Shown: positions 1-30,654 of the stretch, piece after piece
Numbering within the stretch: position 1 is the first letter of the stretch
How the letters are laid out: the number at the start of each line of letters is the position of its first letter
DNA from: Quillaja saponaria
Taxonomy: Eukaryota > Streptophyta > Magnoliopsida > Fabales > Quillajaceae
Reading direction: 5' to 3'
DNA length: 64,000 nt
Assembly: GCA_029379385.1 (NCBI GenBank)
Contig: CM055607.1
Coordinates: 10,292,001-10,356,000, forward strand
Program-made: the position numbers and the translations under genes
Notes under the pieces: generated by a model
Told to the model about the DNA's origin: nothing
The model's input: the letters and a program-made list of their open reading frames with translations, nothing else
Database searches by the model: none

Positions 1-2271
1 GACCATTGTAGCAAAGGAGGATCTGTTTCATTCTGGGTTCGACATCGAAAATTCCCAGTAATTGCTATATGTTCAGTTTATGGAGGTCCTGGAGGATTGG
101 ATACCTACGTTCACTTTGAGGTCTGCTTGTTGATTAATGGTGTCAGAGTCCATGCACATAATGATAGTTTTTCATTAGAATCAAGGCATCACATATGGAT
201 ACATGATCTTCGAGCTCATATGTCCTCCCAGCAATGGCAGACCCTTGACAATTATTTGGAAGAAGATTGGAATCATGTGGAGGTCTCATTTGTAATGTCA
301 ATTGGGACAGTGAAGTGGTGCGGTGTTCATGTATACAAAAAAGAAACAAACATGGATGACATCCAATTCACCATCCCTAACGCTCAGAGTGCCATTGTGC
401 CCTTTGAATCTGAGCATGATGTGGCTGGAGAACAAGAGGATGCAGATTCATATCCAGAAGATGAAAAAATTGACAACTCGTTACAGCTACTAAAATATTT
501 TCGAATTTCGAAAACGACATATAAAGATAAGGCTATAATGGTTTACTACGAGGAATATGAGACTAAAATGTGGGCTAGAGGGACCAACATTGGCAAAGGT
601 AAAGGTTGTGGTGACATTTCTCTCTGACATTTAAAATTTAGTGGAAGTAGCTCTATTTTTGTTTTGGGAGGGGTTATGTGGATCCTTTTATATGCTTCGT
701 TTCTAATCCAATTGATTAATTTCATATTGCCTTTATGATTTAATGATCAGAGATTACAATTAAAGATGACAAACGGACCACTGCTGAGGAAGGTAAGTTC
801 AAATTCTTTATGTTTAAACCATTAATCTATCTTGCATCCTCAATAATTTGTGACGTGTACAAAGTAACAATTGACTTTCCTTTTTGTGTGCAGATGAAGG
901 AGATGCAAAGACAGAGCAGAAGATGACATTAGGAAAAAAAAGCATCAGTTTTGTCTATAGGATGAGTGAGCATGGTCCGTAACTTATTTACTGTATATAT
1001 CCCACCATATTCATATATATATATATATATATACTTAACAAATTAAATTAAATTCCATCAAAATAGTAAGCAAAATAATACACTACATGTTATTGCAGTT
1101 AGACTGCGCTCTAAACTCTCGGACACTGTGTCGAGTACAATGAATTTTGCGGCAGCATTTGTTGTCATGGGTGGAAGAGAAAATATTTTCAAGATTACTT
1201 TTGGGATGAAAGAAGGGGAGGAATTGTTGAAGGCCTCACATTGCTACAAATATACAAAAGCTGCTCCTATTCCAGGAGCCCTTTTTATCTCTACTGAAAA
1301 GGTTGCTTTCAGCAGTGAAGACTTTGATGATAAGGTAATTAACCTTGACATCATACCCCAAACGTATATATCATTTTGTACTAACAATACTACATGCAAA
1401 TTGTTGTGCAGCTTTTGATACTAATAGGAAATATTGAAGACGTCACCCTAAGCAGGAATGTGAAAGAGCCAACTCAAAAGTACATAGAGATTGTGACTAA
1501 AGATAAATCTGAATATCAGTTTAGGGGGTTCTTACGATATGAAAGTGCTTTCAAGAATCTGCGGAAGGCCATTTCAAGGAACACGGAGAAAATGACAATG
1601 AAAATTGACGAAGTTGAAGTTGCAGATGAAGCTGCAGGTGACGTTGCAGATGAAGCTGCACATGAAGTTGCAGATGAATTAGGCAATGCAATTGTAATGG
1701 AACCAGAACAGGAGAATGAATTACAATGCAAAGGAAGGAGTTCTATTAATGCACAGGAGATTTGTGAGCAGGGTAAGTAATTTATATTCACTAATAATGA
1801 TTTACTCACCAAAACACATTGAAGAAAGAAAGAGAAAGGAAAACTTGCAAAAGCAATCAATTCTTATGTCAAAATTACACCGAAAGGATGAATAACCATG
1901 AATTACACATGAATACCAAGTGTGTGTATATATATGTATATATATATATATATAATTATTCACTTATTTCTATTTTTTGTCAATGATGTCTTTGAGTATT
2001 ATCCTTGCACTATATAGGAAAATAAATTAGTTCTGAGTAATTAACTTACGTATGTTTTATGTGGATTATTACAGTAAATCAGGCTCCTAAAATAGCTGAA
2101 AATGAGAGAAGTTCGTTGAGTTTGGGGACAAAAGTTATTAAAGAGAGAGAGAAAATTTCTGATACTATGAAGAGTACATTCAATATGGGGGCAAAAATGA
2201 TTAAACAAAGTGGTAAAGAGAAAATTCCGTTTCTGCCGAAAAAGCTACCTTCTCCATTTAAAAGTTCATGA
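1..2271 (+). CDS. Gene A: 3' part of a TNL resistance gene, C-JID fused to a GEM-like GRAM domain (5' end outside window)
   Basis: Inferred exons are 1-598, 751-792, 894-974, 1099-1334, 1412-1772 and 2075-2271 (stop TGA). They sum to 1515 nt, exactly 505 codons, and every junction has GT-AG and matching phase (1,1,1,0,1). Exon 1 opens inside the TNL C-terminal jelly-roll domain (DHCSKGGSVSFWVRH, then FPVIAICSVYGG). The 894-974 exon (LGKKSISFVYRMSEHG) continues into VRLRSKLSDTV, the segment that precedes GRAM in GEM-like/FIP1 proteins. Exons 1099-1334 and 1412-1772 give the GRAM domain: IFKITFGMKEGEELLKAS, GALFISTEKVAF, KYIEIVTKDKSEYQFRGF. The last exon repeats the GEM-like helix (KISDTMKSTFNMGAKMIKQ). 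If intron 1 is retained, translation stops at 625-627 without GRAM. TNLs are intracellular immune receptors; GRAM domains usually bind phosphoinositides. No lesion is visible in the part shown. The fusion at transcript level is an inference. Confidence 0.82.
1616..1678 (+). repeat. 24-nt in-frame repeat in the acidic linker of gene A
   Basis: About 2.6 copies of a 24-nt unit encode EVADEAAG, DVADEAAH, EVADE just after the GRAM domain. Gene C has only a short acidic stretch (NNEAEEDE) at the same place, so the expansion is specific to gene A. It keeps the frame open. Confidence 0.8.
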
Positions 2272-2690
2272 CCTCTTTCTCCAAACTGGAGAGCTGTTTT
2301 GCAAGGTAATTTTCATTAACTTGCGTACTAGTATTATATTATATATATATACACATACATATATCCAATCAAGGTGATCATCATGATATTTAGCTGCAGG
2401 TTTTGATACCAATGAAGGTAAAGATGGCCATGAATGTGAAGTATATGGAGATAATTGCTGGGTTCAATAAAAGGGATGAGATATTGCGTGTTGTTTGTGT
2501 GTTTAGACATAGCATGAAGTCTTTCTAGACTTGTAATGTGTTTAAGTATAATTGCTTATGTATTCCAATGAACTTGTGCTTGTATGCAGAAGTTGAATAA
2601 TAGCTTATGTATTCCAATGAACTTGTGCTTGTTTTGTAATTCAGATGTAATATATTTTATCGATTCAATAAAAAATAATCCCAATGTGTT
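2272..2690 (+). terminator. 3' UTR and poly(A) region of gene A
   Basis: After the stop, a possible 3' UTR intron runs from a donor near 2306 (GCAAG/GTAATT) to an acceptor near 2400 (CTGCAG). AATAAA motifs lie at about 2465 and 2667-2672. A short direct repeat (AGCTTATGTATTCCAATGAA and its near copy) lies at 2555-2640. Confidence 0.45.
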
Positions 2691-3940
2691 CTTGTATAAT
2701 CTGTGACGTGAGTGATTTTAGCATATGTTATATGAGGCGGGCCAGCTAGAAATCTTTTGCTTTTTTCGTTAACGGTAAGAAAACAGGATTGAAAAAGATG
2801 AGTTGGACTTGGGGTGTGGGGCGGTCTAATAAAAAGTATAAAATCACGGGTGACAAGGAGCAAGCTTAAGCTTGCAAAGTTCGGTTCCGCTCGTCAAGAG
2901 TGTAAGCTCATTCAAGATTTTTGAAGGTATTTTCAAAACTCTAAAAAGATTTTGTAATAAAAAAGAGTTAAATCTATGATCTATTTACTAAGTTTTTGCA
3001 TAATTTATCACCAAACCAAATTGGCTCTTGAAATTTTTTTTAAAATTTTAAAAAAATTTTATAATAGAAGGAGTTGAATCCATGACCTGCTTAATAAATT
3101 TTTACATAACTTATCATCAAACTAAGTTATAATTTATATTTAATTTTTTATAAATTAAATTTATTATAAATTTATATATAAGTAATAAAAAATTTATTAA
3201 ATAATACTAAATTAGCTAGCTCACGAGTTAAGGAACTGAACTTTAAAAAAATTGAATTTGACATATTTTATCAAATAAATTCAAAATAAAATTTAATATA
3301 ACTTATTTAATAAATAAGTGGAGTTCGAATCGAATTTTTACCTAGCTACCTCGGCTCATTACTTTTCCTAAAAACCATCCAAAGTAATGTTTCACTCATG
3401 GAGGACTGAAATAATAATAAATTTTTTTTGACAAGGTGCTGGCATAAAAAAATTATAAATGGTACATGTTTTTTGTAAAAAGAATATAAAAATTCTTTAA
3501 GTAGTTGGCCACACTTCCTATACTCGGGAGAAAGAATTATGCTTTTCGTGTGTACGTGACTGGTGAGAAGTTACACATAAGAGGCTTAATCACAACCTTT
3601 GCTTTTTATTTATTTATTTATTAATTTTATAAGTTTAAATAATTTTAGAAGAATATTAAAATATAAAATTTTAATTTTAATAAGAATGATTTGTTTTTAG
3701 TTGTATATTTGAAAATATTTATTAAAATTATTTAAAAATATAAATTAGTAGAGATATATATACATAAATTAATTTGAATATCATATAATCTCTAAAAAAA
3801 AATTAAAAGTAAATTCAAGAATTTCGATTAACCTATCTCTTCCTATTTTTTATTAAAAAAAAATTATCCCTATATATCTCAACCAGTAAAGATGTGCCCA
3901 CCAATATGAATCACACAAGTGCTTGTAACTTAACATGCTC
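2691..3940. other. AT-rich intergenic spacer
   Basis: No gene is visible. The 2860-3350 part contains runs such as GAGTTCGAATCGAATTTTTACC and CTAGCTCACGAGTTAAGG. They resemble the dispersed repeat found several times right of 41800 and look like a degenerate copy of it. The short reading frames here have no recognisable protein content. Confidence 0.4.
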
Positions 3941-4544
3941 AAAAGTCATTTAGTCAGTACAGACGAAGCTTTGTCAAAAGCTTCTTACAATCCAAGAGAC
4001 CACCACCTGTAAGTGTACACGCATCTGGGACCCACACGAATTTAATGTGAGCAACTTTTCTTTCGTAACAGTTGTAACATTGAATGTAAATAGATATATG
4101 CTGTCCATATTAATGCATCTTTCAGCTTTACTTTGTCAAGCAATAGCAGCAGAGAAAGTGATTAGAGAAGTTGTTTGTGAAAGGAAAGGGGAGACTACCA
4201 ATTCACAGAGTCTCCTACAGATTGGTATGATCTAACAGGCATAACTTTGAGTAATTGATTATTGCCTGCTTCCATGGAGTTTTTCTTGTAATTCGTATTC
4301 CTGGTTCTCCTTCTCTTGCTGCCATGGATTTTTCCTTGCAATTTTCCAAGAAAAACTTTCCAAACTCAATAAATCAGTAACTTATTTTTGAAGAACCAAT
4401 TACTTGAAAAATATGCAAAATAAAAATTTCTTCTGAACAAGAATTTACTTATGCTACTTCCACATAAATTGCTAGCAAAGCAAGACTGATTAACCCACTT
4501 CTAATTTTTCAGGCCTCTACCATAATTTCTCCTCTCATGGTATC
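3941..4544 (+). promoter_or_regulatory. Promoter and 5' leader of TNL gene B, with a P450-start relic
   Basis: This segment aligns with 25210-25980 in front of gene D, so the upstream region was duplicated with the gene. A likely 5' UTR intron ends at TTTTTCAG (4505-4512), 32 bases before the start codon; D and C have an equivalent acceptor. At 4274 the sequence ATGGAGTTTTTCTTG followed by a Leu-rich frame resembles the membrane anchor of the P450 relic at 31601, also in its flanks. In B this frame is closed by TAA after five codons. No clear TATA box was found. Confidence 0.55.
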
Positions 4545-7500
4545 ATGGCACATACAGGGGCTTCCTCCTCCTCTTGCACCCATAAAAATTGGACTTATGA
4601 TGTCTTTCTGAGTTTTAGAGGAGAAGATACCCGATTAAATTTTACAGGCAGTCTTTACAATGCTCTGTGTCAAAAAAGACTACACACATTCCTAGACAAT
4701 GAGGAGCTTAGGAAAGGGGAAAAAAATATCACCTGCCCTTCTCAAAGCAATTGAAGAATCAAGGATTTCAATTGTTATATTCTCTGAAAATTATGCTTGT
4801 TCCTCATGGTGCCTTGATGAACTTGTCAAAATCCTTGAGTGTATGCAAGCAATGGGACAGTTGGTTCGACCTGTTTTTTTCAATGTGGATCCATCAGATG
4901 TAAGACATCAGAAAAGAAGTATTGGAGAAGCAATGGCTAGGCATGAAGAAAGATTCAAGAACGAGATGGACAAGGTGCAAAAGTGGAAGTCTGCTCTGCA
5001 CAATCTGGCCAACTTGTCTGGATGGCATGTCAAATCTGGGTAGACATACATCTCTTTTCCTTTTGTTATGTGCATGCTATTTAATTTATTACAACTTTTT
5101 TTATTTATGAATTAAATTTGATATCTATCTCAGGTATGAATATGATCAGTTTATTCAGGAGATTACTGATGAAGTCTGTAAAAAATTGAACTCAATATTT
5201 ATGCATGTAGTTGATCATCCAGTTGGGTTAGAGTCTCGTGTATCAGAAGTGACTTCACTTTTAGAAATAGATTCTAGTGATGGTGTTCGCATGATTGGGA
5301 TTTTTGGCATTGGTGGAATAGGAAAATCAACAATCGCACGAGCCCTCTATAACTTTGTTGCAGATAAATTTGATTACAAGATTTTCATAGCGAATGTTAG
5401 AGAAAATTCGATTAAACAAGGTTTAGAAGAACTCCAGAAAGAAATTCTTTCCGAGGTGCTTATGGAGAAAGGTTCCAACATACACAATGTTAACCAAGGA
5501 ATAGCTATAACAAAAGATAGACTTCTTCGTAAGAGATTAGTTCTTTTGATTCTTGATGATGTTGACAAACAAGAGCAATTACAAGCATTAGCAGGAGGAT
5601 GTGATTGGTTTGGTTCTGGTAGCAGAGTCATTATTACAACAAGGGATAAACATTTGCTAGATGTTCATGGGGTCGATAAAATATATAATGTGAAGGAATT
5701 CAATGATGATGAAGCCCTTGAATTATTTAGTTGGAAAGCCTTTAAAAGAAGCAAACCAGAAGAAAGTTGGATAGACATTTCAAAGCAGGCAGTGTTTTAT
5801 GGCAAAGGCCTTCCATTGGTGTTGGAAATAATAGGTTCTGAACTATTTGGTAAAACAATTGATGAATGGGAATGCACATTGCAAAAGTACAAAAGCATTC
5901 CAAATAGAAAGATTCAAGAAATCCTAAGAATCAGTTTTGATAATTTGGAGGACAATGAGAAAGCAATTTTCCTTGACATTGCATGCTTTTTCAAAGAAGA
6001 TAAATTGGATCATGTCAAACATATATTAAATGCATGTGGATTCTACCCGAATTCTGGTATCCGAGAACTTACTGACAAATCTTTGATAGCTGTTAAAGAA
6101 AATCGGCTGTGGATGCATGATTTAATTCAAGATATGGGTAGAGAAATTGTTCGGCAAGAATCACCATTAGATCCTGGAAAACGTAGTAGATTATGGTTTC
6201 ATGAGGATATTGTTCGAGTACTAAATGACAATATGGTAAGATCGATATAATGCATATTTTAATATATTCAAGTCCTCTCATATCTATTTTTTTTTATACT
6301 AAATTCTAATGTTGATTGCTGATGCCTTTGTCTTTTTCTGTTTTTTCCAATGGAATTAGGGAACAGAAAAACTTGAAGCCATAGTGTTAGATTTGCCCAG
6401 GCAAGTGTATGAAGTGGAGTGGAACAATGAGGCTTTTGAAAAGATGAAAAATCTTAGAATGCTTAAAGTTGCTGAATATCAAATTGGATGCTTTTCTAAA
6501 GGTCCCAAACATCTCCCAAATAATTTAAGAGTGCTTTTCTGGGATGACTACCCTTCATCATCTTTGCCACCTGATTTTCATCCCAAGAAACTTGTTATAC
6601 TTGAGTTAAGGTACAGTCGTTTTGCATTGGAGCAGCCATTCAAGGTAAAGTCATTATTTGCAGTTTTGCACATGTTTACTTCATTATTAATTTGAGTAAT
6701 TATAGTTGCACAAAAATTTTAAGTGGTCCCCACATGCAAGAGGGAGAAGTGCGTGGAAACAACTCTCTCTTGAAATAGGTTCTCACTAATATTTGTATCA
6801 GCAATGTGCACGAACATTATTCTATTCAATTTGCATGTAAAAACTCTTAATTGAATATAATAATAATTATTTCAATTTTGTTTAATGCAGAAGTATGACT
6901 ATTTGACTCATATGGATCTAAGACATTGTTCTGCCATTAAAGAAATACCTAACATCTCTCAAATTCCAAATTTAGTAGATTTGAGTTTTGATGGATGTAA
7001 GAATTTAGTCAAGGTTCATAATTCTGTTGGGTTTCTAAGTAAGCTTGTTAAGTTGAGTGTCTGGGGATGCACAAGCCTCAAGAGTTTTCCACCTCTTGTG
7101 AAGTTGACAGCTCTTGAACACCTTGATTTCAGGAGTAGTTCAAAACTTGAGAGATTCCCAGATGTTTTGGGGAAAATGGAAAAGATAAGATTCATTGATG
7201 TGGGAGAGACTGCAATAAAGGAACTCCCATCTTCATTTGGCTATCTTATTGGGCTTGAAAAATTATGTTTGACAAAGTGTATATGGCTTAGTGATCTACC
7301 AAGTAGCTTTCTAGCTTTGCAAAATCTTAAGGAGCTTGATATGGGAAATTGTCCCAAAATTCGAAAATGTTTGAGAATGTTCAAGAAACATGGACAAGTA
7401 ATTGAAGGTTTGGTTACTTCAATATTGAACTTGGTTTTACTAAATGTCAAATACTGTGATCTATCAGATGATGATGTTTTCATAATCCTTAGTAGTTTTC

Positions 7501-9138
7501 ACAAATTGGAAAAGCTAAACCTATCTGGAAACAACTTTGTTACTATACCAACATGCATCAAAGAACTTCTGTACTTGGAGACTCTCCAAATGGATTATTG
7601 CAGTTTCCTCCACGAAATTCCAGAGATTCCACCACTTTTACGAGACATAAGTACCGATTTTTGCAGATCATTGACTAAACAGTCATCAAACATATTATTA
7701 AGTCAGGTTGCTCTCTAGCTCTTTCTCTCATTTTCACGCAACCCATAAACTTAAATTGTTAGATGAGGTCGCAAGAATGATCTTTGATATCTTTGTGTAA
7801 CAGGGCTTGAAGGAGGTCAAGAACTTACATGTTCAAGTCCCAGGAAGAGGGATTCCAGATTGGTTTGATCACCGTGTAAAAGGGGGATCCTTGTCTTTCT
7901 GGGTTTGTGGAAATTTCCCAGTGATTACTGTGTGTTCTGTTTTTGGGGGACAGGAAGAGTTATGGTTAGACTTCCAATTCAACTTGTTCATCAACGGCCG
8001 CAGAGTGTATGTGTTTCGCAATACTTATGGGGTAAAACTTGAACATTTTACGTGGCTCCATGATCTAAGAACTGATATGTCCTCCAAGCAGTGGCGAGAT
8101 CTTGACACATACCTACACCATGATTGGAATCAGGTGGAGCTTTCATTTGCATTGTCAAAGGGGACAGTGAATTGGTGCGGAGTTCATGCATACAAGCAAG
8201 AAACAGACATGAAAAATGTTCTGTTCACAAATCCTGATTCTGAGAATTGGAGTATGGCCTCTGATCATTTTGATGAAGAAAGTGAAGGCTACTTTTCATG
8301 TACATCAGATGAAGATGTTGAGGAGACAGAAGTAGAAGCGACCAGCCCACAAACCAAAGAAGGTGCTAAAATCAGTGTCTTGGTTAAGGCTATGATGGCT
8401 TTGATTTCTCCACAAGATGATATTAAAGTAAGGCTATGATTCTGATGCATGCACTTCTTCTTGTCAGTGCAGGTAAAGAAGATGAAATTATGGAGCTCAA
8501 GAAAACATTAGGAAGCTGGAAAATCATCAACTTGGCAAAAAGGATCCATCACCATGGTATGTATTTAATCCACATAGCACCCCATATTGCTCTTTTAAGA
8601 ATTCAAATTCTCACATAGCAGCAAAATAAAATACATTGTAAAGGAAATTAATTGCAGTTAAATTGCGTCCTGGATTCTATGGGAATTCTCGCAACATGTT
8701 GATTATGGGGATCTTCATCATTATATCCGGTGGCAGAGCTAATCTGTTCAAGCACGAGTTTGGGATTAGAGAAGGAGAGAAGCTGTTGAAGGCCTCACAG
8801 TGTTATTTTTGTTCCGCAGCTGGTCTAATTGCAGGAGCCCTTTTTATCTCTACTGAAAAAGTTGCTTTCTGTGATGAATTAGTCCGTAAACATCAGGTAA
8901 CTTTTATGTCATGATCAACCCTAAAAAATAATACTTGGACATTGAAATTAATTAAGGTGAGTTTTTGCAGTTTGTGATACCCATAGAGATGATTAAAAAA
9001 GTCAACCAAGGAAAGAAGATGAACCAGCCAGCTCAGGAGTACATAGAGATTATAACTGAATACGATGGAGAATTTCGGTTTATAGGATTTTTACAATATG
9101 AGAAAGCTTGGTTGAATTTGTTGATGGCCATTTCTTGA
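4545..9138 (+). CDS. Gene B: TIR-NBS-LRR-C-JID-GRAM resistance gene, near complete, one frameshift in the TIR exon
   Basis: Inferred exons are 4545-5039 (TIR), 5134-6235 (NB-ARC), 6360-6644 and 6891-7706 (LRR), 7804-8362 (C-JID), 8473-8556 (GEM-like linker), and 8658-8896 plus 8971-9138 (GRAM). Motifs seen: DVFLSFRGEDTR; SSWCLDEL, whose Glu is the TIR NADase residue; P-loop GIGGIGKST; kinase-2 LLILDDVD; RNBS-B GSRVIITTRD; GLPL; WMHD; WFDHR of the C-JID; GALFISTEKVAF of GRAM. The exons total 1249 codons only if the A run at 4720-4726 is read as six A, as in gene D. With seven A the frame closes shortly after, at 4752-4754. All other exons are open. The protein would act in the cytosol or nucleus as an immune receptor. 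Either this is a recent pseudogene or the seventh A is an assembly error. A competing donor at 8428 exists but would give a frame that stops early in the next exon. Confidence 0.85.
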
Positions 9139-9211
9139 TGAATGAACACCTGGAAAATGTAACTGAAAATTGAAATCTTTATCTGATCAAAATTTTTTTA
9201 GGATTATTTAA

Positions 9212-9253
9212 GCTTTGAAGAATCTCCAGAAGACAATTGCTATGGCCAGGTAA
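9212..9253 (+). other. GRAM C-terminal helix relic behind gene B
   Basis: The sequence reads ALKNLQKTIAMAR then stop, the usual end of a GEM-like GRAM domain. It lies 70 bases after the gene B stop, which itself ends on a second version of the same helix (AWLNLLMAIS). Gene D has the same arrangement at 30716. It may be an unused exon or an alternative last exon. Confidence 0.45.
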
Positions 9254-9289
9254 CTTTAGCTAAAACTACTTTTACATTTTAGACACTTT

Positions 9290-10330
9290 CATTTTTATGA
9301 AATTAATTTACTGCCTTATGAACTCTTTTGACCAATTTCTCTCAAACCATTGTCTGGAAAATATTATGAGAGTAATGACAGACCATATCAGAAAGTTTGA
9401 CCAACTGGGTACAGAACACATCACTACTGAGACTAGAGAAACGGGACGAACATCTGGGCCCAAACGGCCTGCTGCATGGCCTAGCATAGTCCTACGGCCC
9501 CAGCCCGTAGAAGTCCGCCAGAATTCTGTTATGCCTTTTTCCGCTTGTCACCACCTTGTTTACTATTCAACTAGCCTAGGTTCAACTTGTTTTAACCCTT
9601 AACGTGTTATTTATTTTTTGAATTAAAGAGTTCTTAATGACCGAGCTCAAACTTGCTTAAAAATTGATAGCTCTTTTATTCAAGTACTTTTAGCAAGCCG
9701 AACTTGAATCTGCATAGTCCAGTTAGTTTTCATGACTACCAGATGTAAAGGACCTGTCTTTTTTGTATGCTTAATCTGTTTTGAGTGCATTATTGATGGT
9801 GACACAAGGATTTCAAGCTAGCCGCAAAATTTCACTTATTTAAGATTAATTAGGAAGAGAGGCATTTAATTAATTCTTCTTGTGGGGTCGTTTTCATGGA
9901 CTACACTAATGTTAAGTCCAACAATGTCCGGACTTACAATTTGTGTGTTGGATGCTAGGGTGCTTGCAGAGTTGGAACCACATCAACTTGGGCTCGGGAA
10001 CTTGCAAAATATACGAAAGTCAGATGTCGAGGTGTGTCCCTAAAATCATCGATCTGATGGATAAGTTAGAGCTTTCCTTGTATATATGTGAGATAATCAA
10101 TGTAAAAGTGCAAGAAATATATATTTTTCTTCGTTAATTATAGGTTCACATGGGGTTGCCATGTGTCCCAAGGAAGTGGAATTGCTACTAGTGTATTGTA
10201 GGACTATGATCCAATGGAATTGGTTGGAAGGTACTCTCATACTAACATTTCCTTAGTAGGAAGAATTGGTTACCATTCAGACCAATTAATTATATGGAAT
10301 ATAGTAAATTAGAGATATCAGTATGAAAGT
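9290..10330. repeat. Spacer shared with 30830-31060 and 35930-36440
   Basis: The first part (AAAATATTATGAGAGTAATGACAG and following) matches 30930-31040. From about 9510 (AGTCCGCCAGAATTC) to 10320 (TAGTAGGAAGAATTGGTTACC) it matches 35935-36440 in patches. About 4.9 kb lies between these two halves on the gene D side (P450 relic, inverted-repeat element, LINE) and is absent here. A GC-rich patch at 9450-9520 is unlike its surroundings. No gene is supported. Confidence 0.6.
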
Positions 10331-18047: not shown

Positions 18048-20439
18048 ATGATCACAAATGAAGAGGATCCCTCCTCCACCTGCAGCCAAACTTGGGTTTA
18101 CGATGTGTTTCCGAGTTTTAGAGGTGAAGATACCCGCGAAGGATTTACTGGAAATCTATATAACACTTTGCATCAACGAGGAGTCCGCACGTTCATTGAT
18201 GATGAGAAGCTTAAAAGAGGAGTTAGAGAAACTTCCACAAAGCAAGGGTTGCTACAGCTTCAAAAGACACTTCTAGGTGATACGCTCGGCGATAAGGACT
18301 TCAGTCTAAGAGATGTCAAGGAAGGAATGGAAAGGATACAACACGGCCTTCTACAGAAGAAAGTTCTAATAGTTCTTGATGATGTGGACCAACTTGAGCA
18401 GTTACAAATGTTGGTTGAAAAAGACTGGTTTGGAACTGGCAGCACAATCATTGTAACAACAAGGGATAAGCATTTGCTAACTGCTCATGATATTGATATA
18501 AAATATGAGATGAAGGTACTTGATGATCATGAGGCCCTTGAATTGTTTTGTTGGAGTGCCTTTAAAAATGAAATACCTGATGAAGGTTTTGAGGAAATTT
18601 CAGCACGTGCAGTACAATACAGCAGCAACCTGCCATATTGGCTTTAAAAATCATTGGTTCTGATTTGATTGGTAAGGGAATGGATGAATGGAAAAGCACA
18701 TTAGAAAAGTATGAAAGAGTTCCAAACAAAGATATTCAAAGTATACTTCGAATAAGCTATGATAATTTGGACGAAAATGAGAAGCAAATTTTCCTTGACG
18801 TTGCGTGTTTCTTCAAAGGAATGCCAGTGGAAACGTGCAAAAAAGTGCTGAAAGGTTTTGGTTTCCACCCGGATTCTGCCATTACTCCACTTTTGGACAA
18901 ATCCATTCTATTACTTAAAGAGAATACACTGTGGATGCATGATCTAATAGAAGAAATGGGCAGGGAAATTGTACGTCAAGAGTCACCAACAGATCCTGGA
19001 AATCGCACTAGATTATGGTTTCATGAGGATGCTCTTCAAGTTTTAAAGGAAAACTCGGCATGATTTTTCATATAAAATAAATTTTTTAATTGCCATAATT
19101 GATTAGTCTTCTGAGCTATGACTTAGAATTAGATGAAAGTGTGTTTTCTCCTTGTTCTATTTTCATTCATTCAAAACAAAGACAAACATAAGGAATTTAT
19201 GAATACATTCCTATATTTTACAAAACCAATATGTAACATTGATACTTTGATTACTGATGGAATTTGTCTTAATTAACAGGGAAGCGAAAAAATTGAAGGC
19301 ATAATGCTTAGCTTGCCCTACGAAGAAACGGTGGAGTGGAGTGGTGAAGTCTTTGAAAAGATGAAAAACCTTAGGTTGTTGGTGATTGAAAATGCAAATT
19401 TTTCCAAAGGTCCCAAACATCTCCAAAGTAGTTTAAGAGTGCTTGGCTGGAAGAATTATCCTTCACAATCTTTGCCTACTGATTTTGATCCGACAAAACT
19501 TGTCATACTGAACTTGCCTCATAGTTCTGATTTTACATTAAATGTTGCAGTAATCAAGGTACCTATAATCGTTGCTCATTATGAATACTTATTTCCTTCA
19601 TATTATTTAATCTGCAATATTTGCTTATATGATTAGGTGCCTTTTTTTATGATACAAATTCTTTCTTTCATGTAAAAATATATGTATCCAAATAAATATG
19701 TATCATAGTTTTTACGATTAGAATTCCCTAACTCCAGAAAGTTATTTCAACTTTGTTTCGCAGACCTTGGAGTCCTTGCGTTTAGCCCTCTTATATCCAG
19801 AGGGCTATTCCAGGTATAGTCATTATTTGTTAATGAACATGTTTACTTCATTTTCTAATCTTGCATATGTGACTAGAATGCTTCATCAGCAGCTAATGTT
19901 TATTATTTCAATTTGTTAATCGCAGAGGTGCGAGCACTTGATCTTTATGGATCTTAGTCACTGTGCATCCCTTACAAATGTACCCAACTTATCTGGAATC
20001 CCAAATTTAGAGGAACTGTATCTTGATTATTGTTCAAAGTTAGAGAATGTTCATCGTTCTGTTGGACGTCTAACTAAGCTTGTTAAGCTGAGTGCAAAAG
20101 GATGCTACAACCTCAAAAGTTTTCCATCTAAAATTTATTTGCCTTCCCTCGAAAGTCTTAATCTGAGGAAATGCTCATCACTAGTAAGGTTTCCAGATGT
20201 TTTGGAGAAGATGGAAAGTATTAGATTCATAGATGTGGGAGATAAGGAAATTGCCAGCTTCTTTTGGCTCTCTTATTGGGCTTGAAAAGTTATGTTTGAG
20301 GAGGTGCATATGTCTTTCTAGTCTACCAAGCAGCATTGTTATGCTGAAAAATCTTAAGGAGCTTGACATGGGAAACTGTCCCAAGCTTCAAAAATGTTTG
20401 AAAATGTTCAAACGTTTTGATGGACAGTCATCTATGTCA

Positions 20440-20751
20440 TTTGAGTCGACTGAAAGTACAGTTTCTTCACATTTGAACTTGATTTCACTAAATGATCAGT
20501 CTATCGAAAGTTACTCTGTTACTGACATGGTTTCACCGAGTCAGTCCCCTGAAAGTTCTTTTAATTCACAGTTGGACTTGGCTTCATTGAGTGAGTCCTC
20601 GGAAAGTTTTTCTGCTAATGCCCAACTGGACTTGGTTTCACTGAGTGATTCCATTGAAAGCTGTTCTGTTTCACAGTTGGACTTGGTTTCACTAAATGAG
20701 TCCACTGAAAGTGTTGTCACTTCACAATATTTAGACTTGGTTTTGCTGAAT
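20440..20751 (+). repeat. Six-unit Ser-rich repeat inside the LRR of gene C
   Basis: 104 codons form six units of 16-18 residues with consensus ESxESxSVxSQLDLVSLS. Examples are DSIESCSVSQLDLVSLN and SPESSFNSQLDLASLS. Genes B and D have a single matching stretch (SILNLVLLN) at this point in the LRR, so the unit was amplified only in C. It is in frame with the second LRR segment. Confidence 0.8.
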
Positions 20752-20781
20752 CTTGAGGATTGTAATCTATCAGATGAAGAC

Positions 20782-21332
20782 TGTAAAATAGTAGTAGCTT
20801 GGATTATACCAAGACTATACCATGATCTTAAATTTACAATAGAACAATTACATAAAACTTACTTATCTAAACAATGTGAGACTTAACACCCAACATAACT
20901 TAATATTAAATATACTCTAACACACCCCCTCAAGCTAGAACATATATATGCTCAAGCTTGTACAAGTATAATCCCAAGTATCAAAACTCTCAACACTCTC
21001 CTATAACAAAAAATTACATCAAGTTCACTCGATTCACTCCGTGCCTAAGAGAACGAGAACGGCACAAACAACATGTGCCTAAAAGAAAATGACACAAACA
21101 ACATGTGTCTAAAACAAGAATTGTTGGTTCACAACCAACATAAAATGCCAAATTGGCAACAACTTCCGCAGAGAAAAAAATTTATATATAGAAAAAAATA
21201 ATAGTAGCTTGGATTATATCAAGACTATACCGGGATCTTAAATTTATAATAGAACAATTACATAAGACTTACTTATCTAAACAATGTGGGACTTAACACC
21301 CAACATAACTTAATATTAAATATACTCTAACA
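20782..21332 (-). mobile_element. TRIM-like LTR retroelement (551 bp) with 5-bp target duplication
   Basis: Two direct repeats of about 141 bp (20782-20922 and about 21191-21332) bound an internal part of about 270 bp with no coding capacity. The element begins TG and ends CA and is flanked by AAGAC on both sides (20777-20781 and 21333-21337). Removing it restores the LRR reading (GATGAAGAC then CTTCTCATAATCC), matching genes B and D. On the minus strand a purine tract (CTTGAGGGGGTG) abuts the LTR start TGTTAGAG, which sets the orientation. The primer-binding site was not identified. LTRs differ at several places, so the insertion is not brand new. Confidence 0.88.
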
Positions 21333-23602
21333 AAGACCTTCTCATAATCCTTGATACTTTTCCGGGATTGACTAAACTAAAACTGTCGAGAAACAAATTT
21401 GTAACTCTCCCGGCATGCATCAAAGAACTCCTCTGTTTGGAGTCTCTTCAGTTGGATTTTTGCAGCCGCCTTCAGGAAATTCAAGCAATTCCAGAGCAAT
21501 TAGAATACATAACTGCAACATTTTGCCAGAAGTTGACGACAGAATCATCAAACATGTTACTGAGACAGGTTTTCTTTTTTTACTCTCTCTATATATATTT
21601 ACGTTTCTTTCTGGTAAATCTAAATTTACTAAGAGGTATATGCATGCTAGGAGAAAGTAACACCAACACCAACGAGAACAGTGTAACTGTTTCATATAAA
21701 ACTTTCTCTAAAATACTTACTTGGTTGTTAATGATTAATTATAATTTTTAACTATGCAACAGGTTTTGTATGAGATTCCGAAACTTGAAGTCAGTGTAGA
21801 TGGACAAGATATTCCAGATTGGTTTGACCATCGTAGCAAAGGAGGATCTCTGTCGTTCTGGGTCGGACGAAAGTTCCCAGTAATAGCTGTATGTTCAGTT
21901 TACGGAGGATCTGATGACGCCTACATTCTCTTTGAGGTCTGCTTGTCCATTAATGGTGTCCAAGTATTTGCACATCAAGATAGTTTTTCAGTAGAATCAA
22001 GGTCACCTCATATATGGCTACACGATCTTCGAGCTCATATGTCCTCTCAGCAATGGCAGAGCCTTGACAAATATCTAGAAGAAGACTGGAATCATGTGGA
22101 GGTCTCATTTGCAATGCCAATTGGGACAGTAAAGTGCTGTGGTGTTCATGTATACAAGAAAGAAACAAACATGGAAGATGTCCAGTTCAAAGACCCTAAT
22201 GCTGAATGTGCGATTGTGCCCTATGAATCTGATCATGATGTCACTGGAGAGCAAGATCAGGGCATGTTTTCAAGTACAGAAGGTGAACAAATTGATAACA
22301 GTACTCAGTCACAGCTATTGAACTATTTTGGAATTCCCAAAACAACAGATAAAGGGAAGTCCATAATGGTAAACAACGATGAAGAGGCTAAATTGTGGGA
22401 CAAAGGGACCAGTACTGGTGGCAAAGGTTATAAAGGTGATGAATGGCTGTGATGACATTCAATCCAATCAACATGCATGCATTTATAAGTAGAAAGTAAC
22501 TATGTAGTGTTTTTGTTTATATATCAATTGGTTAACTTCATAATGCTTATGATTTAATGATCAGATATTGCAATTCAAGACAAATGGACCACTGAAGAGG
22601 ACGACAATGGTAAGTTCTAATTCTTTATGTCTAAACTAATAATTTATCTAGCTAGCTTAAACTAATGGCATTCACAGTGGACTTTCCTTTTTAAGTGCAG
22701 ATAAAGGAGATGCAAAGATCATAGAACAGAAGACTTCAATAGAAAAAGGCATCAGTCTTGCCTATAAGATCAATGACCGGGGTAATTAATCAAATAATAA
22801 TATCGTAAACACATACAATTAGATTCAATGCATCGATTAAAAAAGTAAGCAGATCTTCTAATATTCTAGCTACATGATATGCATGAAATTGCTTGCAGTT
22901 AGAATGCGGTCTAAAGACAAAGACACTGTGAAGGGTGCATTGATTTATGGGGCAGCAATTGTTGCATTGGGTGGAAGAGAAAATATTTTCAACCAAATTT
23001 TTAAGATGAAACAAGGAGAGAAACTTTTGAAGGCCTCACAATGCTTCCGATATACAACAGCTGCTCCTATTCCAGGAGTCCTTTTTATATCTACTGAAAA
23101 GGTTGCTTTCTGCAGTGAAGACTTTGCTGATAAGGTAAATATTAACTTTGACATTAATTGATTGCACGGGGACCCGTTTGGAAACATATATATATATATA
23201 TATATTCATTGATTACGTGCTTAATTATTTTGCAGCTTTTGATACCAATTGGGGATATTAGAGATGCCACCCGAAGAAATTACGTGATGGATCCAACTAA
23301 GAAGTTCATAGATATTGTGACTAAAGATAAATCAAGATATCAGTTTAGGGGCTTCATACGATATGAAACCGCTTTGAGGAATCTGCAGAAGGCCATTTCA
23401 ATGAACAAAGAGAAAATTAATAATGAAGCTGAAGAAGATGAATTAGGCAATGGGATTGTATTGGTACAGAAGCATGAGAAAATTTTACAATTCACAGGCG
23501 CGAGTTCTGTAGCCCCTACGATCTGTCAGCCAGGTAAGTACATATATACATTTCCACAATCACAGAAAAATGAATTAATTCTGAGTAATTAATTACTCAA
23601 AC

Positions 23603-23639
<37 letters not shown>

Positions 23640-23935
23640 ATTTTACTTTTTGTTTGCATGGATTTACAGTACTAAATCAGGGTCCTAATAGAATAGCTGA
23701 GATTGTGACGGGTACATCGAGCTTGGGGGCAAAAGTTATAGAAGAAAAAGAGAAAATTTCTAATACTATGAATAGTAAGTTTTGTTTGGGGGCAAAAGAC
23801 GTTCAAGAAAGTGGCATTTCATCTTCTTCAAGTCTCTATCTTAATAGTTACATTTTTATTATTCGTTTGGATTCTGGATTACTTGTATGTATACTTCCAA
23901 CTTCCAACTCTAGAGTTCAACCCCTGCCAATATGA

Positions 23936-24019
23936 AATTTTTTGGGATGGCTATTGGCGGGTCGTCCAGAAGAGGTGAAGGAGGAGGAGACAAGGGTGAA
24001 GTTGAAAATATTTAATAAA
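23936..24019. other. Short spacer after gene C
   Basis: A purine-rich stretch (GAGGAGGAGACAAGGG) separates the gene C stop from the TNL fragment. No feature was recognised. Confidence 0.4.
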
Positions 24020-25020
24020 ATTTGGGTGAAAAAATATGTTTGAAAATGTTCAAGAAACATGCATGGACAAGTAATTGCAGGTTCAATTACTTCAATATTG
24101 AACTCGGTTTTACTAAATGTCAAATACTGTGATATATCAGATGAAGATGCCTCATAATCCTTAGTTGTTTCACAAATTAGAAAAGCTAAATCTATCTGGA
24201 AACAACTTTGTTACAATACCAACATGCATCAAAGAACTCTTGTGCTTGAAGACTACAAATGGATTATTGTAGGTTCCTCCATGGAATTCTAGAGATTCTA
24301 CCACGCTTGCGAGCCATAACTACCGTTCCGCAGATCATTGACTAAATAGTCATCGAACATATTAGAGTAAATTACACACCCCTTGAGCTTTAGAAAAATA
24401 ACAACATCCAAAATTTAGGGAAATGACACTCCCTCGGTAACATACACCATGATTAGAATCAGGTGGAGCTTTCATTTGCTTTTATTGTTAAAGGGGACAG
24501 TGAATTGGTGTGGAGTTCATGCGTACAAGCAAGAAACAGACATGAAAAATGTTCTGTTCGTAAATCCTGATTATGAGAATTGGGTATGGCCTCTCATCAT
24601 TTTGATGAAGAAAGTGAAGGCTACTTTTCATGTAAATCAGATGAAGATATTGCGGAGACAGAAGTAGAAGCAACCAGCCCACAAACCAAAGAAGTTGCCA
24701 AAATCAGTGTCATCTTTAAGGCTAATATGGCTTTGATTTCTCCACAAGATGATATTAAAGTAAGGCTATGATGCTGATGCATGCACTTTTCTTGTAAGTG
24801 CAGGTAAAGAAGATTTAACTATGGAGCTCAAGAAAACATTGGGAAGCTGGAAAATAATCAACTTGGCAAATAGGATCCATCACCATGGTATGTATGTAAT
24901 CCACATAGCACCGCATATCACTCTTTTAAGAATTCAAATTCTCACATAGCATCAAAATAAAATACATTGCAAAGGAAATCAGTTGCTGTTAAATTGCGTC
25001 TGGATTCTATGAGAATTCTC
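24020..25020 (+). pseudogene. Chimeric fragment of a B/D-type TNL-GRAM gene
   Basis: Three pieces follow in correct order. 24030-24365 matches the 3' part of the LRR exon, with several indels and stops. 24440-24775 matches the end of the C-JID exon (NWCGVHAYKQETDMKNVLF). 24803-24887 and 24983-25020 match the GEM-like linker exon and the first bases of the GRAM exon. The match stops abruptly at AATTCTC, followed by a TAA-rich tract. Part of the C-JID is replaced by unrelated bases (24366-24435). This is a truncated copy between gene C and gene D, not a working gene. Confidence 0.85.
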
Positions 25021-25209
25021 AGAAAAAAAAATAATAATAATAAAATAATTTTTAATTATAAGAAAAATAACATATTTTCGTGCACTTGACAGTGCTAAGC
25101 ACATTTGCTCTGCTATCAATTTTATATTTTATTATTATTATTGTATAGAAAAAAAAGCAGGGTCATTTGTTTAGCGGATGTGCCGCCAAATCAAACGGAT
25201 CGTTAACAA
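25021..25209. other. AT-rich spacer
   Basis: An (ATA)n-like tract at 25030-25050 and unique AT-rich sequence. No gene. Confidence 0.4.
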
Positions 25210-25980
25210 GCTCAAAAGTCAAAAGTCAAAAGCTTTGACAAAAGTTTCTTACAATCCAAGAGACGCACCACTAATAAGTGTACATGCATGTGGGACCGAC
25301 ACGAATTTAATGTGAGCCATTTTTCTTTCCTAACAGTTGTAACATTGAAGGGAAATAAATATACACATCTTTCAGTTTTACTGTGTCAAGCAAAACCAGA
25401 GAAAGTGATTTGAGAAGTTGTTTGTCAAAGGAAAGAGAAGACCACCAATTTACAGAAAAAAAAATAAAAATCCAAATAGATATTTTCCAATTTTATTTCA
25501 TATTAATTCAAAGAAAGTTTCATTTCTTAAATTCAATGAAGTTACACAGTCTTTATTAATTTTAATTTTTATTTTTATATAAAATATTTTAATAAAAAAG
25601 AGTTTCATTATATTAGTTTACTCAACTCAAGAATTGCTCAATGAATCGGTTGGTCTACAGGTTGGTCATGATCTAACAGATGCAGCTTTGAGGAATTGAT
25701 TATTGTCTTCTCCCATGGAGTTTTTCTTGCAATTCGTATTCCTGGTTCTCCTTTTCTTGCTGCCATGGATTTTTCCTTGCAATTTTCATGAAAAACTTTC
25801 CAAACTCAATAAAACAATAACTTATTTGTGAAGTACCAATTACTTGAAAAATATGCAAAATAAAAATTTATTTTGAACAAGAATTTACTTATGCTACTTT
25901 CACATAAATTGCTAGCAAAGCACTGATTAACCCACTTCTAATCTTCAGGCCTCCACCATAATTTCACCTCTCATAGTATC
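25210..25980 (+). promoter_or_regulatory. Promoter and leader of gene D, duplicated from that of gene B
   Basis: Aligns with 3941-4544, with an extra AT-rich insertion around 25455-25640. A likely 5' UTR intron acceptor (CTTCAG) sits at 25943-25948. The P450-start relic at 25715 is in a longer open state here than in front of gene B. Confidence 0.55.
25715..25831 (+). other. Upstream ORF of 38 codons resembling a P450 membrane anchor
   Basis: ATG opens MEFFLQFVFLVLLFLLPW and the frame ends at TGA 25829-25831. The beginning and its flanks (TTGATTATTG.CTTC) match the start of the P450 relic at 31601 (MDFFLPPLLLLFIIFL). In gene B the sixth codon is TAA instead of CAA. If the leader is transcribed this would be an upstream ORF; otherwise it is only a relic. 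Confidence 0.5.
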
Positions 25981-26472
25981 ATGGCACACACGGGGGCTTC
26001 CTCCTCCTCCTTCTGCACCCATAAATATTGGACTGATGTCTTTCTGAGTTTTAGGGGAGAAGATACCCGATTAAATTTTACAGGCAGTCTTTACAATGCT
26101 CTGTGCCAAAAAAGAATACACACATTCCTAGACAATGAGGGGCTTAGGAAAGGGGAAAAAATATCACTTGCCCTTCTCAAAGCAATTGAAGAATCAAGGA
26201 TTTCAATTGTTATATTCTCTGAAAATTATGCTTGTTCCTCATGGTGCCTTGATGAGCTTGTCAAAATCCTTCAGTGTATGGAAGCAATGGGACAGTTGGT
26301 TCGACCTGTTTTTTTCAATGTGGATCCATCAGATGTAAGACGTCGGAAAAGAAGTATTGGAGAAGCAATGGCTAGGCATGAAGAAAGATTCATGAAGGAG
26401 ATGGACAAGGTGCAAAATTGGAAGTCTTCTCTACACAATCTGGCCAACTTGTCTGGATGGCATTTCAAATAA
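25981..26472 (+). CDS. Possible TIR-only protein encoded by the first exon of gene D
   Basis: 163 codons from ATG to TAA give a complete TIR domain: DVFLSFRGEDTR at residues 19-30, SRISIVIFSENYA at 72-84, SSWCLDEL with the putative NADase Glu at residue 92, FFNVDPSDVR and the closing NLSGWHFK. Loss of the intron 1 donor means the transcript would read straight into a stop after the TIR. TIR-only proteins are known in plants and some signal by NAD+ cleavage. Whether this exon is expressed is unknown. Confidence 0.45.
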   Translation: MAHTGASSSSFCTHKYWTDVFLSFRGEDTRLNFTGSLYNALCQKRIHTFLDNEGLRKGEKISLALLKAIEESRISIVIFSENYACSSWCLDELVKILQCMEAMGQLVRPVFFNVDPSDVRRRKRSIGEAMARHEERFMKEMDKVQNWKSSLHNLANLSGWHFK

Positions 26473-29400
26473 GACATACATCTCTTTTCTTTTTGCTATG
26501 TGCATGCTATTTAATTTGTTACAACTCTTTTTATTTTTGAATTAAATTTGATATCGATCTCAGGTATGAATATGATCAGTTTATTCAGGAGGTTACAGAT
26601 GAAGTCTGTAAAAAGTTGAACTCAATATTTATGCATATCAGTTGGGTTACAGTCTCATATATCAGAAGTGACTTCACTTTTAGAAATTAATTCTAGTGAT
26701 GATGTTCGCATGATTGGGATTTTTGGCATTGGTGGAATAGGAAAATCAACAATTGCACGAGCCCTCTATAACTTTGTTGCTGATAAATTTGATTACAAGA
26801 TTTTCATAGCAAACGTTAGAGAAAATTCGATTAAACAAGGTTTAGAAGAACTCCAGAAAGAAATTCTTTCCGAGGTGCTTATGGAGAAAGGTTCCAACAT
26901 ACACAATGTTAGCCAAGGAATAGCTGTAACAAAAGACAGACTTCCTCGTACGAGATCAGTTCTTTTGATTCTTGATGATGTTGACAAACAAGAGCAATTA
27001 CAAGCATTAGCAGGAGGATATGATTAGTTTGGTTCTGGTAGTAGAGTCATTAGTACAACAAGGGATAAACATTTGCTAGATGTTCATGGGGTCGATAAAA
27101 TTTATAATGTGAAGGAATTCAATGATGATGAAGCCCTTGAATTATTCAGTTGGAAAGCCTTTAAAAGAAGCAAACCAGAAGAAAGTTGGATAGACATTTC
27201 AAAGCGGGCAGTGTTTTATGGCAAGGGCCTTTCATTGGTGTTGGAAATAACAGGTTCTGAATTGTTTGGTAAAACAATTGATGAATGCACATTGCAAAAG
27301 TACAAAAGCATTCCAAATAGAAAGATTCAAGAAATCCTAAGAATCAGTTTTGATAATTTGGAGGACAATGAGAAAGCAATTTTCCTTGACATTGCTTGCT
27401 TTTTCAAAGAAGAGAAATTGGATCATGTCAAACATATATTAAATGCATGTAGATTCTACCCGAATTCTGGTATTCGAGAACTTACTGACAAATCTTTGAT
27501 AGTTGTTAAAGAAAATTGGCTGTGGATGCATGATTTAATTCAAGATATGGGTAGAGAAATTGTTCCACAAGAATCACCATTAGATCCTGGAAAACGTAGT
27601 AGATTATGGTTTCATGAGGATATTGTTCGAGTACTAAATGACAATACGGTACGATATAACGCATATTTTATTATATTCAAGTCCTCTCATATCTATGTTT
27701 TTATACTAAATTCTAATGTTGATTGCTGAAGCCTTTGTCTTTTTCTTTTTTTTCGAATGGAATTAGGGAACAGAAAAACTTGAAGCCATAGTGTTAGACT
27801 TTCCCAGGCAAGTGTATGAAGTGGAGTGGAACGATGAAGCTTTTGAAAAGATGAAAAATCTTAGAATGCTTAAAGTTGATGAATATCAAATTGGATGCTT
27901 TTCTAAAGGTCCCAACCATCTCCCAAATAATTTAAGAGTGCTTTTCTGGGATGACTATCCTTCATCATCTTTGCCACCTGATTTTCATCCCAAGAAACTT
28001 GTTATACTCGAGTTAGGGTATAGTCGTTTTGCATTGGAGAAGCCATTCAAGGTAAGGTCATTATTTGCAGTTTTGCACATGTTTACTTCATTATTTAATT
28101 TAGTAATGACAGTTGCACGAAGATTTTATATCATCTAAATTGACATACTGCTTGAAAAATCTTATTTTCATTGGAGAAAAAGCTGCTACATGCAGCCCTC
28201 TTAAGTGGACCTCACATGCAAGAGGGAGGAGTGTAAGAGGGAGGAGTGTGTAAAAACAACTCTCTCTTAAAATAAGGTCTCACTAATATTTATTTATCAA
28301 TTTGCACGAACATTATTCTATTCAATTTTAATGTAGAAACTCTTAATTTAATGTAATAATAATTATTTCAATTTTGTTTAATGCAGAAGTATGACTATTT
28401 GACTCATATGGATCTAAGACATTGTTCTGCCATTAAAGAAATGCCTAATATCTCTCAAATTCCAAATTTAGTAGATTTGAGTTTTGATGGATGTAAGAAT
28501 TTAGTCAAGGTTCATAGTTCTGTTGGGTTTCTAAGTAAGCTTGTTAAGTTGAGTGTCTGGGGATGCACAAGCCTCAAGAGTTTTCCACCTCTTGTGAAGT
28601 TGACAGCTCTTGAACACCTTGATTTCAGGAGTAGTTCAAAACTTGAGAGATTCCCAGATGTTTTGGGGAAAATGGAAAAGGTAAGATTCATTGATGTGGG
28701 AGAGACTGCAATAAAGGAACTGCCATCTTCATTTGGCAACCTTATTGGGCTTGAAAAATTATGTTTGACAAAGTGTATATGGCTTAGTGATCTTCCAAGT
28801 AGCTTTCTAGCTTTGCAAAATCTTAAGGAGCTTGATATGGGAAATTGTCCCAAAATTCGAAGATGTTTGAGAATGTTCAAGAAACATGGACAAATAATTG
28901 AAGGTTCGGTTACTTCAATATTGAACTTGGTTTTACTAAATGTCAAATACTGTGATCTATCAGATGATAATGTTTTCATAATCCTTAGTAGTTTTCACAA
29001 GTTGGAAAAGCTAAACCTTTCAGGAAACAACTTTGTTACTATATCAACATGCATCAAAGAACTTCTGTACTTGGAGACTCTCCAAATGGATTATTGCAGT
29101 TTCCTCCACGAAATTCCAGAGATTCCACCACTTTTAGGAGACATAAGTACTGATTTTTGCAGATCATTGACTAAACAGTCATCAAACATATTATTAAGTC
29201 AGGTTGCTCTCTAGCTCTTTCTCTCATGTTCACGCAACCCATAAACTTAAATTGTTAGATGAGGTCGCAAGAATGATCTTTGATAGCTTTGTGTAACAGG
29301 GCTTGAAGGAGGTCAAGAACTTACAAGCTCAAGTCCCAGGAAGAGGGATTCCAGATTGGTTTGATCACCGTGTAAAAGGGGGATCCTCGTCTTTCTGGGT

Positions 29401-30654
29401 TCGTGGAAATTTCCCAGTGATTACTGTGTTCTGTTTTTGGAGGACAGGAAGAGTTAAGGTTAGACTTCCAATTCAACTTGTTCATCAACGGCCGCAGAGT
29501 GTATGTGTTTCGCAATACTTATGGGGTAAAACTTGAACATTTTACGCGGCTCCATGATCTAAGAACTGATATGTCCTCCAAGCAGTGGCGAGATCTTGAC
29601 ACATACCTACACCATGATTGGAATCAGGTGGAGCTTTCATTTGCATTGTCAAAGGGGACAGTGAATTGGTGCGGAGTTCATGCATACAAGCAAGAAACAG
29701 ACATGAAAAATGTTCTGTTCACAAATCCTGATTCTGAAAATTGGAGTATGGCCTCTGATCATTTTGATGAAGAAAGTGAAGGCTACTTTTCATGTACATC
29801 AGATGAAGATGTCAAGGAGACAGAATTAGAAGCAACCAGCCCACATACCAAAGAAGGTGCCAAAATCAGTGTCATAGATAAGGCTATGATGGTTTTGATT
29901 TCTCCACAAGATGATATTAAAGTAAGGCTATGATGCTGATGCATGCACTTTTCTTGTGAGTGCAGATGAAGAAGATGCAACTATGGAGCTCAAGAAAACA
30001 TTAGGAAGCTGGAAAATCATCAACTTGGCAAAGAGGATCCATCACCATGGTACGTAATTAATCCTCATAGCTCTGCAAATCATTCTTAAGAATTCAAATA
30101 TTGACGTAGCAGCTAATTAAATAAATTGTAAATGAAATCAATTGCAGTTAAATTGCGTCCTGTATTCTATGAGAATTCTCGCAACATGTTGATTATGGAG
30201 ATCTTCATCATTATATCTGGTGGCAGAGCTAATCTGTTCAAGCATGAGTTTGGGATTAGAGAAGGAGAGGAGCTGTTGAAGGCCTCAGAGTGTTATTTTT
30301 GTTCCGCAGCTGGTCTAATTGCAGGAGTCCTTTTTATCTCTACTGAAAAAGTTGCTTTCTGTGATAAATTAGTCCGTAAACATCAGGTAACTTTTATGTC
30401 ATAATCAACCCTTTAAAATCAATACTTGGAGATTTTGATCCAACAGTTACATTAAAATTAATTAAGGTGAGTTTTTGCAGTTTGTGATACCAATAATAGA
30501 GATGATTAAAAAAGTCAACCAAGGAAAGAAGATGAACCAGCCAGCTCAGGAGTACTTAGAGATTAAAACTGAATACAATGCAGAATTTCGGTTTAAAGGA
30601 TTTTTACAATATGATGAAGCTTGGTTGAATTTGATGAAAGCCATTGCTTGGTGA
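25981..30654 (+). pseudogene. Gene D: TNL-C-JID-GRAM paralogue of gene B with multiple lesions
   Basis: Exons correspond one to one with gene B: 25981-26469, 26564-27658, 27767-28051, 28387-29202, 29300-29856, 29966-30049, 30148-30386 and 30481-30654. Lesions: the donor after the TIR exon is lost and replaced by a stop (26470-26472). An 11-base deletion lies near 26637, before the P-loop. A TGG-to-TAG stop lies at 27025-27027, before RNBS-B. RNBS-B itself reads GSRVISTTRD. A 2-base deletion lies near 29430 in the C-JID. P-loop GIGGIGKST and WMHD remain, and the two LRR exons are open and very close to B. The GRAM exons are open (EYLEIKTEYNAEFRFKGF) and end on TGA. A full receptor cannot be made. 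Confidence 0.88.

Follow-up and report, generated by a model that had tools for sequence, protein, structure and literature searches.

A putative integrated GEM-like GRAM domain at the end of a TNL receptor family in Quillaja saponaria

Do GRAM-domain exons that lie directly behind plant immune receptor genes belong to the receptors, and if they do, where did the domain come from and what may it do there? The question is raised by a stretch of 64,000 nucleotides from Quillaja saponaria (C3:10292001-10356000, in a genome of 351.8 Mb; ‘the window’ below). An earlier note, made from the letters alone, had described in it four TIR–NB-ARC–leucine-rich repeat (LRR) receptor genes (TNLs), A to D, in which a C-JID exon is followed by exons for the conserved segment and GRAM domain of GEM-like proteins. 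Gene models were built with a purpose-written protein-to-genome aligner and corrected queries, and this succession of exons, with agreeing phases, was confirmed at all four places. The sequence evidence argues strongly for a GRAM fusion in a large TNL family of this species.

Gene A, with 5 kb upstream of the window added, is complete: it has 10 exons and 1,500 codons followed by TGA, with no stop or frameshift, and encodes TIR, NB-ARC, LRR, a C-JID-like region, a linker and a GEM-like GRAM, in this order. Its six exons within the window (Table 1), read to base 2268, keep the open frame reported before and give 504 codons before TGA, not 505. TIR, NB-ARC and LRR share a single frame, with a P-loop and the TIR motif WCLDEL, as expected of a TNL. 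A Pfam scan of A, run on a 1,425-residue model without the Ser-rich stretch of the LRR exon, placed TIR, NB-ARC, WHD_ROQ1, LRR and GRAM above cut-off. Of the two domains for which the earlier note had proposed a profile scan, GRAM scored well above its cut-off of 23.6 bits (45.8 bits in A; in B, 47.0 bits for the GRAM piece and 44.6 bits for the C-JID-GRAM piece), but C-JID, found at the expected place, fell just below its cut-off of 24.1 bits (20.9 in A, 24.0 in B). The Ser-rich stretch itself (∼76 residues; C3:10291178-10291405, upstream of the window) lies in the second LRR exon of A and is also present in the public models P0001 and P0003; the LRR of B is shorter. In an AlphaFold model the mean predicted local distance difference test score (pLDDT) of the whole protein was 50.7 and the TNL part was poor; the structural matches to that part were mostly LRR proteins.

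Gene B encodes 1,248 residues (previously counted as 1249 codons with one base discounted) when a single frameshift in the TIR exon is read through. This frameshift is possibly an assembly error, because B′, a near-identical copy of B, is open at that position of the TIR exon; B′ has a frameshift in the LRR instead. Genes C and D are pseudogenes: C has lost much of the TIR and the start of the NB-ARC and carries two frameshifts, and D has one stop and three frameshifts. The four receptors first described are therefore an intact gene, a gene with one lesion and two relics.

A whole-genome search with the GRAM of A gave at least 77 exon matches. The region C3:10.08-10.70 Mb holds 18 places with GRAM exon 1, namely a stand-alone GEM-like gene at the left edge of the cluster, ∼16 kb before G1 (G0; P0014, public name GEM-like protein 4), and 17 TNL-type places, 15 of which were read (those at 10600956 and 10698430 fall outside the reading). 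Frames are open in five of the 15 (G3, G4, G6, A and A′, the first intron of A′ being unclear), interrupted by a single frameshift in four (B, B′, G2 and E) and broken in six (G1, G5, C, C′, D and D′). Within the 271 kb that were read, which surround and precede the window, each of the 13 C-JID exons of at least 100 residues has GRAM exon 1 293-701 bases downstream, and no receptor with such an exon lacks GRAM; two GRAM exons there are without a C-JID exon, those of G0 and of D′, which has a deletion. Positions 1-63640 of the window are repeated at C3:10193467-10262204, ∼93 kb upstream, with 96.9-99.2% identity and structural differences. This repeat of the A-D block may be a recent duplication or an unmerged second haplotype, and A/A′ and other pairs may be alleles set in tandem by the assembly.

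The fusion is also seen on two other contigs. A complete TNL-GRAM gene on C8, modelled at C8:24641726-24647959, is free of internal stops and frameshifts. An in-frame ATG immediately precedes the modelled stretch, a stop immediately follows it, and the intron phases equal those of the C3 genes. The GRAM of this gene had been a candidate stand-alone gene, which was rejected when it was found to end a TNL. A second C8 place (L040; C8:24651900-24655400, minus strand) holds TIR, NB-ARC, a linker and a broken GRAM, with no LRR or C-JID within the 3.5 kb read, and C1 carries two broken TNLs with GRAM exon 1. GRAM exon 1 of the C8 gene is about half identical to that of the C3 copies, and the frame is nevertheless kept. 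Given the copies on C8 and C1, the fusion is likely to be older than the C3 cluster. Four public Quillaja protein models already carry a TNL-GRAM fusion; along with the open paralogues on two chromosomes, their equal intron phases and the purifying selection described below (three of four pairs), these models support the proposal of a TNL with a C-terminal integrated GRAM.

As judged from sequence, the GRAM of the receptors is a descendant of the stand-alone GEM-like gene family of plants. The last three introns of G0, the one stand-alone gene used in the intron comparison, have phases 1, 1 and 0, and the receptor introns before and between the 81-nt exon, GRAM exon 1 and GRAM exon 2 match them. 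The retained introns rule out retroposed capture; therefore, genomic DNA rather than a processed copy was captured. Across most of GRAM exon 1, gene A is 61% identical to G0 and 51% identical to its top match on a different contig.

Relatives for the trees were drawn from the best 120 of 719 proteins listed. Sixty-one of 119 (P0014 was added separately) had an ISTEK-type motif and enough length and were used in trees; 58 were omitted. Eight rows (L033, P0006, P0115, P0062, D′, C′, A′ and B′) were dropped before the earlier tree and four more (G1, G5, G6 and P0002) before the later one. With the loop columns removed, one branch (support 97/87) separates ten TNL GRAMs from 62 stand-alones; a careful tree with 12 C3-type rows gave 96/81. 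In the tree the two C8 rows join each other on long branches. An approximately unbiased (AU) test of a clade formed by the nine TNL rows other than the second C8 row gave p 0.03, as expected if that row belongs inside the clade.

Derived changes are shared as well. Seventy-four positions are each kept in 90% or more of the 62 stand-alones. Of these, four are altered in all ten TNL rows, including a Gly that is Arg in all ten and a Trp replaced by Lys, Gln or Arg; a fifth is altered in seven rows and falls in a gap in three. Between strands 3 and 4 the stand-alone rows printed have a loop; A, G3, C, B and D are 12-14 residues shorter there, also when the query itself bears the loop, and the public models P0001, P0003 and P0005 show the same shortening. 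A shared loss in the C8 gene was considered and set aside, because the outcome varies with the query. Most likely the fusion arose once and is now found on C3, C8 and C1, with amplification on C3.

Selection on the GRAM part was estimated by the Nei–Gojobori method as omega (the ratio of nonsynonymous to synonymous divergence) with Fisher p values for 14 pairs plus A-G4 and G4-G6; the pairs share branches, so that the p values are not independent. Omega was 0.32 for A-E, 0.34 for G3-G4, 0.18 for G2-G4, 0.46 for A-G3 and 0.34 for E-G3 (each p<0.02), 0.45 for A-G4, 0.64 for G3-C (p 0.04) and 0.77 for A-B (p 0.14). Against G0 it was 0.38 for A, 0.36 for G3, 0.46 for B and 0.43 for C. Values near 1 were obtained for A-C (1.02), E-C (1.00) and B-D (1.07), pairs that include a broken copy. 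Purifying selection on the GRAM is thus observed in three of the four pairs in which both copies are open, with omega below 0.5 (A-G3, A-G4 and G3-G4, not G4-G6). Synonymous divergence (dS) of the GRAM is 0.56 between A and B and 0.76-0.81 between A, G3, B or C and G0; the lower A-B value fits a capture before the split of A and B. Elsewhere in the A-B pair dS is 0.88 (NB-ARC), 1.09 (first LRR exon) and 1.20 (C-JID exon), and the ratio of GRAM dS to NB-ARC dS is ∼0.6 in A-B and in A-G3.

What the domain may do is a matter of weighing. The pattern fits the integrated decoy proposed in the earlier note, which we infer rather than observe: the most likely reading, to which we give about even chances, is that in an old Quillaja TNL lineage the three final exons of a GEM-like gene (FIP1/GEM-like 4 type) were taken up as DNA behind the C-JID exon, and that the GRAM so acquired serves a ROQ1-like TNL as an integrated decoy. 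The fused protein would be translated with its GRAM; a pathogen effector that targets GEM-like/GRAM proteins would attach to or modify the fused GRAM, and this contact would free the NB-ARC switch. The receptor would next assemble into a tetramer like those of ROQ1 and RPP1, its TIR domains would cut NAD+ and EDS1-dependent immunity would start; tetramer formation, NADase activity and EDS1 signalling are steps of ROQ1 and RPP1 action. Changes at the MHD motif can alter the switch in other nucleotide-binding LRR receptors (NLRs); here the motif is MHN in A, A′, G3, G4, G6 and E, LHN in G2, and MHD in B, B′, C, C′, D and the C8 gene.

Several observations weigh against a captured decoy. Omega of the GRAM is 1.04 in G4-G6, on five changes only, and in A-G3 it is higher (0.45-0.46) than that of the NB-ARC (0.33). 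The splice donors behind the C-JID exon of B (AAG/GTGCTA) and behind the 81-nt exon of A (GTCCGT) are weak. If the intron after the C-JID exon of A were retained, translation would reach a stop ∼10 codons on. The trees do not place the neighbour G0 nearest to the TNL GRAMs, which are long branches, and long-branch attraction may help their clade. The loop state of the C8 gene depends on the query (a small exon is added with a loop-bearing stand-alone query, score 295, and not with loop-less queries, 287 and 277); the single-origin view is unaffected, because the remaining evidence for it is independent of the loop of C8. Literature searches, mostly at title level, found no report of an effector that binds a GEM-like protein, and the available portions of PMC10514941 give a citrus GRAM gene only as expression-changed in effector-expressing plants.

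The weak donors and the possible stop through intron retention are also what one would expect if the GRAM were a passenger, present in the gene and mostly spliced out of the protein, or neutral; the omega values near 1 in pairs with a broken copy and in G4-G6 point the same way. We regard this as improbable, since omega is 0.18-0.46 in five open or one-lesion pairs, GRAM is kept behind every C-JID exon of at least 100 residues in the 271 kb, and the C8 and C3 copies keep the frame at about half identity. A donor for B other than the weak one, GTAAGG after window base 8427, was set aside as out of phase (the 624 bases from 7804 onward are a multiple of three). It is very unlikely that TNL and GEM-like genes are merely adjacent and separately transcribed. 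A free-standing GEM-like gene does stand at the cluster edge, but the receptor GRAM exons come without the first exon of that gene, start in phase 1 and continue the C-JID frame, and public models fuse the two parts; separate transcription was rejected as the leading explanation on the grounds of the missing first exon and the continued C-JID phase.

It is possible, if unlikely, that the fused GRAM is not bait and acts instead as a membrane-targeting or regulatory module, which would bind a phosphoinositide or other lipid and place or restrain the receptor at the membrane. The PH-GRAM fold appears in the models to be retained, most of the open copies compared show purifying selection, and in each of the ten TNL rows the trimmed GRAM carries a net positive charge (+1 to +11). 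Charge, however, does not discriminate, as the four stand-alones printed span 0 to +10. The C3 copies examined have lost the strand-3/strand-4 loop, and this loss, together with the conserved positions changed in all ten rows, one a Trp, suggests that ancestral binding has been altered. More speculative, and quite improbable in our view, is that a single ancient capture fixed a modified GRAM in the receptor lineage and coupled pathogen-caused change of membrane lipids to TIR activation, so that the receptor would sense lipid state and not an effector. The family would provide a natural experiment on whether receptors can make use of a lipid-binding fold.

Table 1. Receptor and GRAM features of the window (positions counted from its first base)
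Feature	Position	Strand	Remark
Gene A, C-JID exon, 3′ part, and acidic linker	1..598	+	gene start 4,991 bases upstream of window, C3:10287010
Gene A, 42-nt linker exon	751..792	+	flanked on both sides by phase-1 introns
Gene A, 81-nt GEM-like exon	894..974	+	phases as in exon 2 (78 nt) of stand-alone GEM-like gene
Gene A, GRAM exon 1, 236 nt	1099..1334	+	counterpart in stand-alone gene 278 nt
Gene A, GRAM exon 2 and acidic tail	1412..1772	+	
Gene A, last exon	2075..2271	+	TGA at 2269-2271
Gene B, TIR exon	4545..5039	+	one frameshift
Gene B, NB-ARC/WHD exon	5134..6235	+	
Gene B, first LRR exon	6360..6644	+	
Gene B, second LRR exon	6891..7706	+	
Gene B, C-JID exon	7804..8362	+	weak donor
Gene B, GEM-like exon	8473..8556	+	
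Gene B, GRAM exon 1	8658..8896	+	
Gene B, GRAM exon 2 and stop	8971..9138	+	
Gene C, TIR remnant	18072..18221	+	remaining TIR and NB-ARC start missing
Gene C, NB-ARC, LRR and C-JID exons	18150..22426	+	broken by two frameshifts
Gene C, linker, GEM-like, GRAM and tail exons	22565..23815	+	GRAM exon 1 22899-23134, exon 2 23236-23533
Relic between C and D	24044..24693	+	LRR and C-JID fragments of a fifth copy
Gene D, TIR through C-JID exons	25981..29856	+	one stop, three frameshifts
Gene D, GEM-like and GRAM exons	29966..30648	+	GRAM exons 30148-30386, 30481-30648

The window also contains a cytochrome P450 fragment beside the receptor cluster (32703-33122, 63 bits), a zf-RVT retroelement fragment (34708-35085, 52 bits) and, on the minus strand, a Kunitz-type protease inhibitor frame (50449-51129, 139 bits) and another frame of 227 residues (54849-55532).

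Of the proteins found in searches with two query regions, those modelled as TNL-GRAM are all from Quillaja, and since the C8 gene is also unlisted there, absence elsewhere does not follow; the other match was a Salix transporter-GRAM model. Literature on GRAM with NLR terms gave no title about TNL-GRAM. The earlier note knew of no characterised TNL-GRAM receptor, and the searched main texts (supplementary tables lying outside this coverage) are in line with that: term look-ups found no GRAM domain in those of PMC4759884, PMC12787737, PMC6709784, PMC7422411, PMC11734081, PMC9528084 and PMC8559963, nor in that of PMC5067614, where the sole string match lies inside ‘graminis’. In the available portions of PMC10241880 and PMC5834200, GRAM stands in the reference lists only. 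The main text of PMC12787737 counts 1,226 distinct integrated domains in 305 genomes, so GRAM may stand in a supplementary table. Expression tables in the accessible parts of two papers name a GRAM gene, in citrus (PMC10514941) and in bean (PMC9370732); the number of the bean gene, Phvul.004G138600, is also that of P0102, among the GRAM relatives listed.

Integrated domains point to host proteins under pathogen attack. If the fused GRAM is indeed a decoy, its retention throughout a receptor family spread over three contigs would mark the GEM-like proteins, which are little studied and tied to responses to hormones and stress, as probable targets of effectors. The history of one fusion is also unusually readable here, thanks to the retained introns, the neighbouring stand-alone gene and the derived changes that the copies share.

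Among known systems, ROQ1 and RPP1 arrange TIR, NB-ARC/WHD and LRR as the Quillaja receptors do, with a C-JID-type region behind them, and ROQ1 is the best PDB match to the first 790 residues of A (E 6e-175); we know of no GRAM behind the C-JID in either. With GEM-like/FIP1 proteins the receptors share the GRAM domain, the upstream exon and the intron places and phases, but they are without the first exon, have lost the loop in the C3 copies examined and differ at four to five conserved positions. A divergent helper without the domain, of the RRS1/RPS4 type, was not found in the 271 kb read, where every receptor match scoring above 35 bits is on the same strand. RRS1 itself, according to part of PMC9528084, is a TNL with a C-terminal WRKY-like domain, and the Quillaja genes resemble NLRs of its type in carrying, behind the receptor core, a non-NLR plant domain with stand-alone relatives in the genome; the domain here, however, is a GEM-like GRAM.

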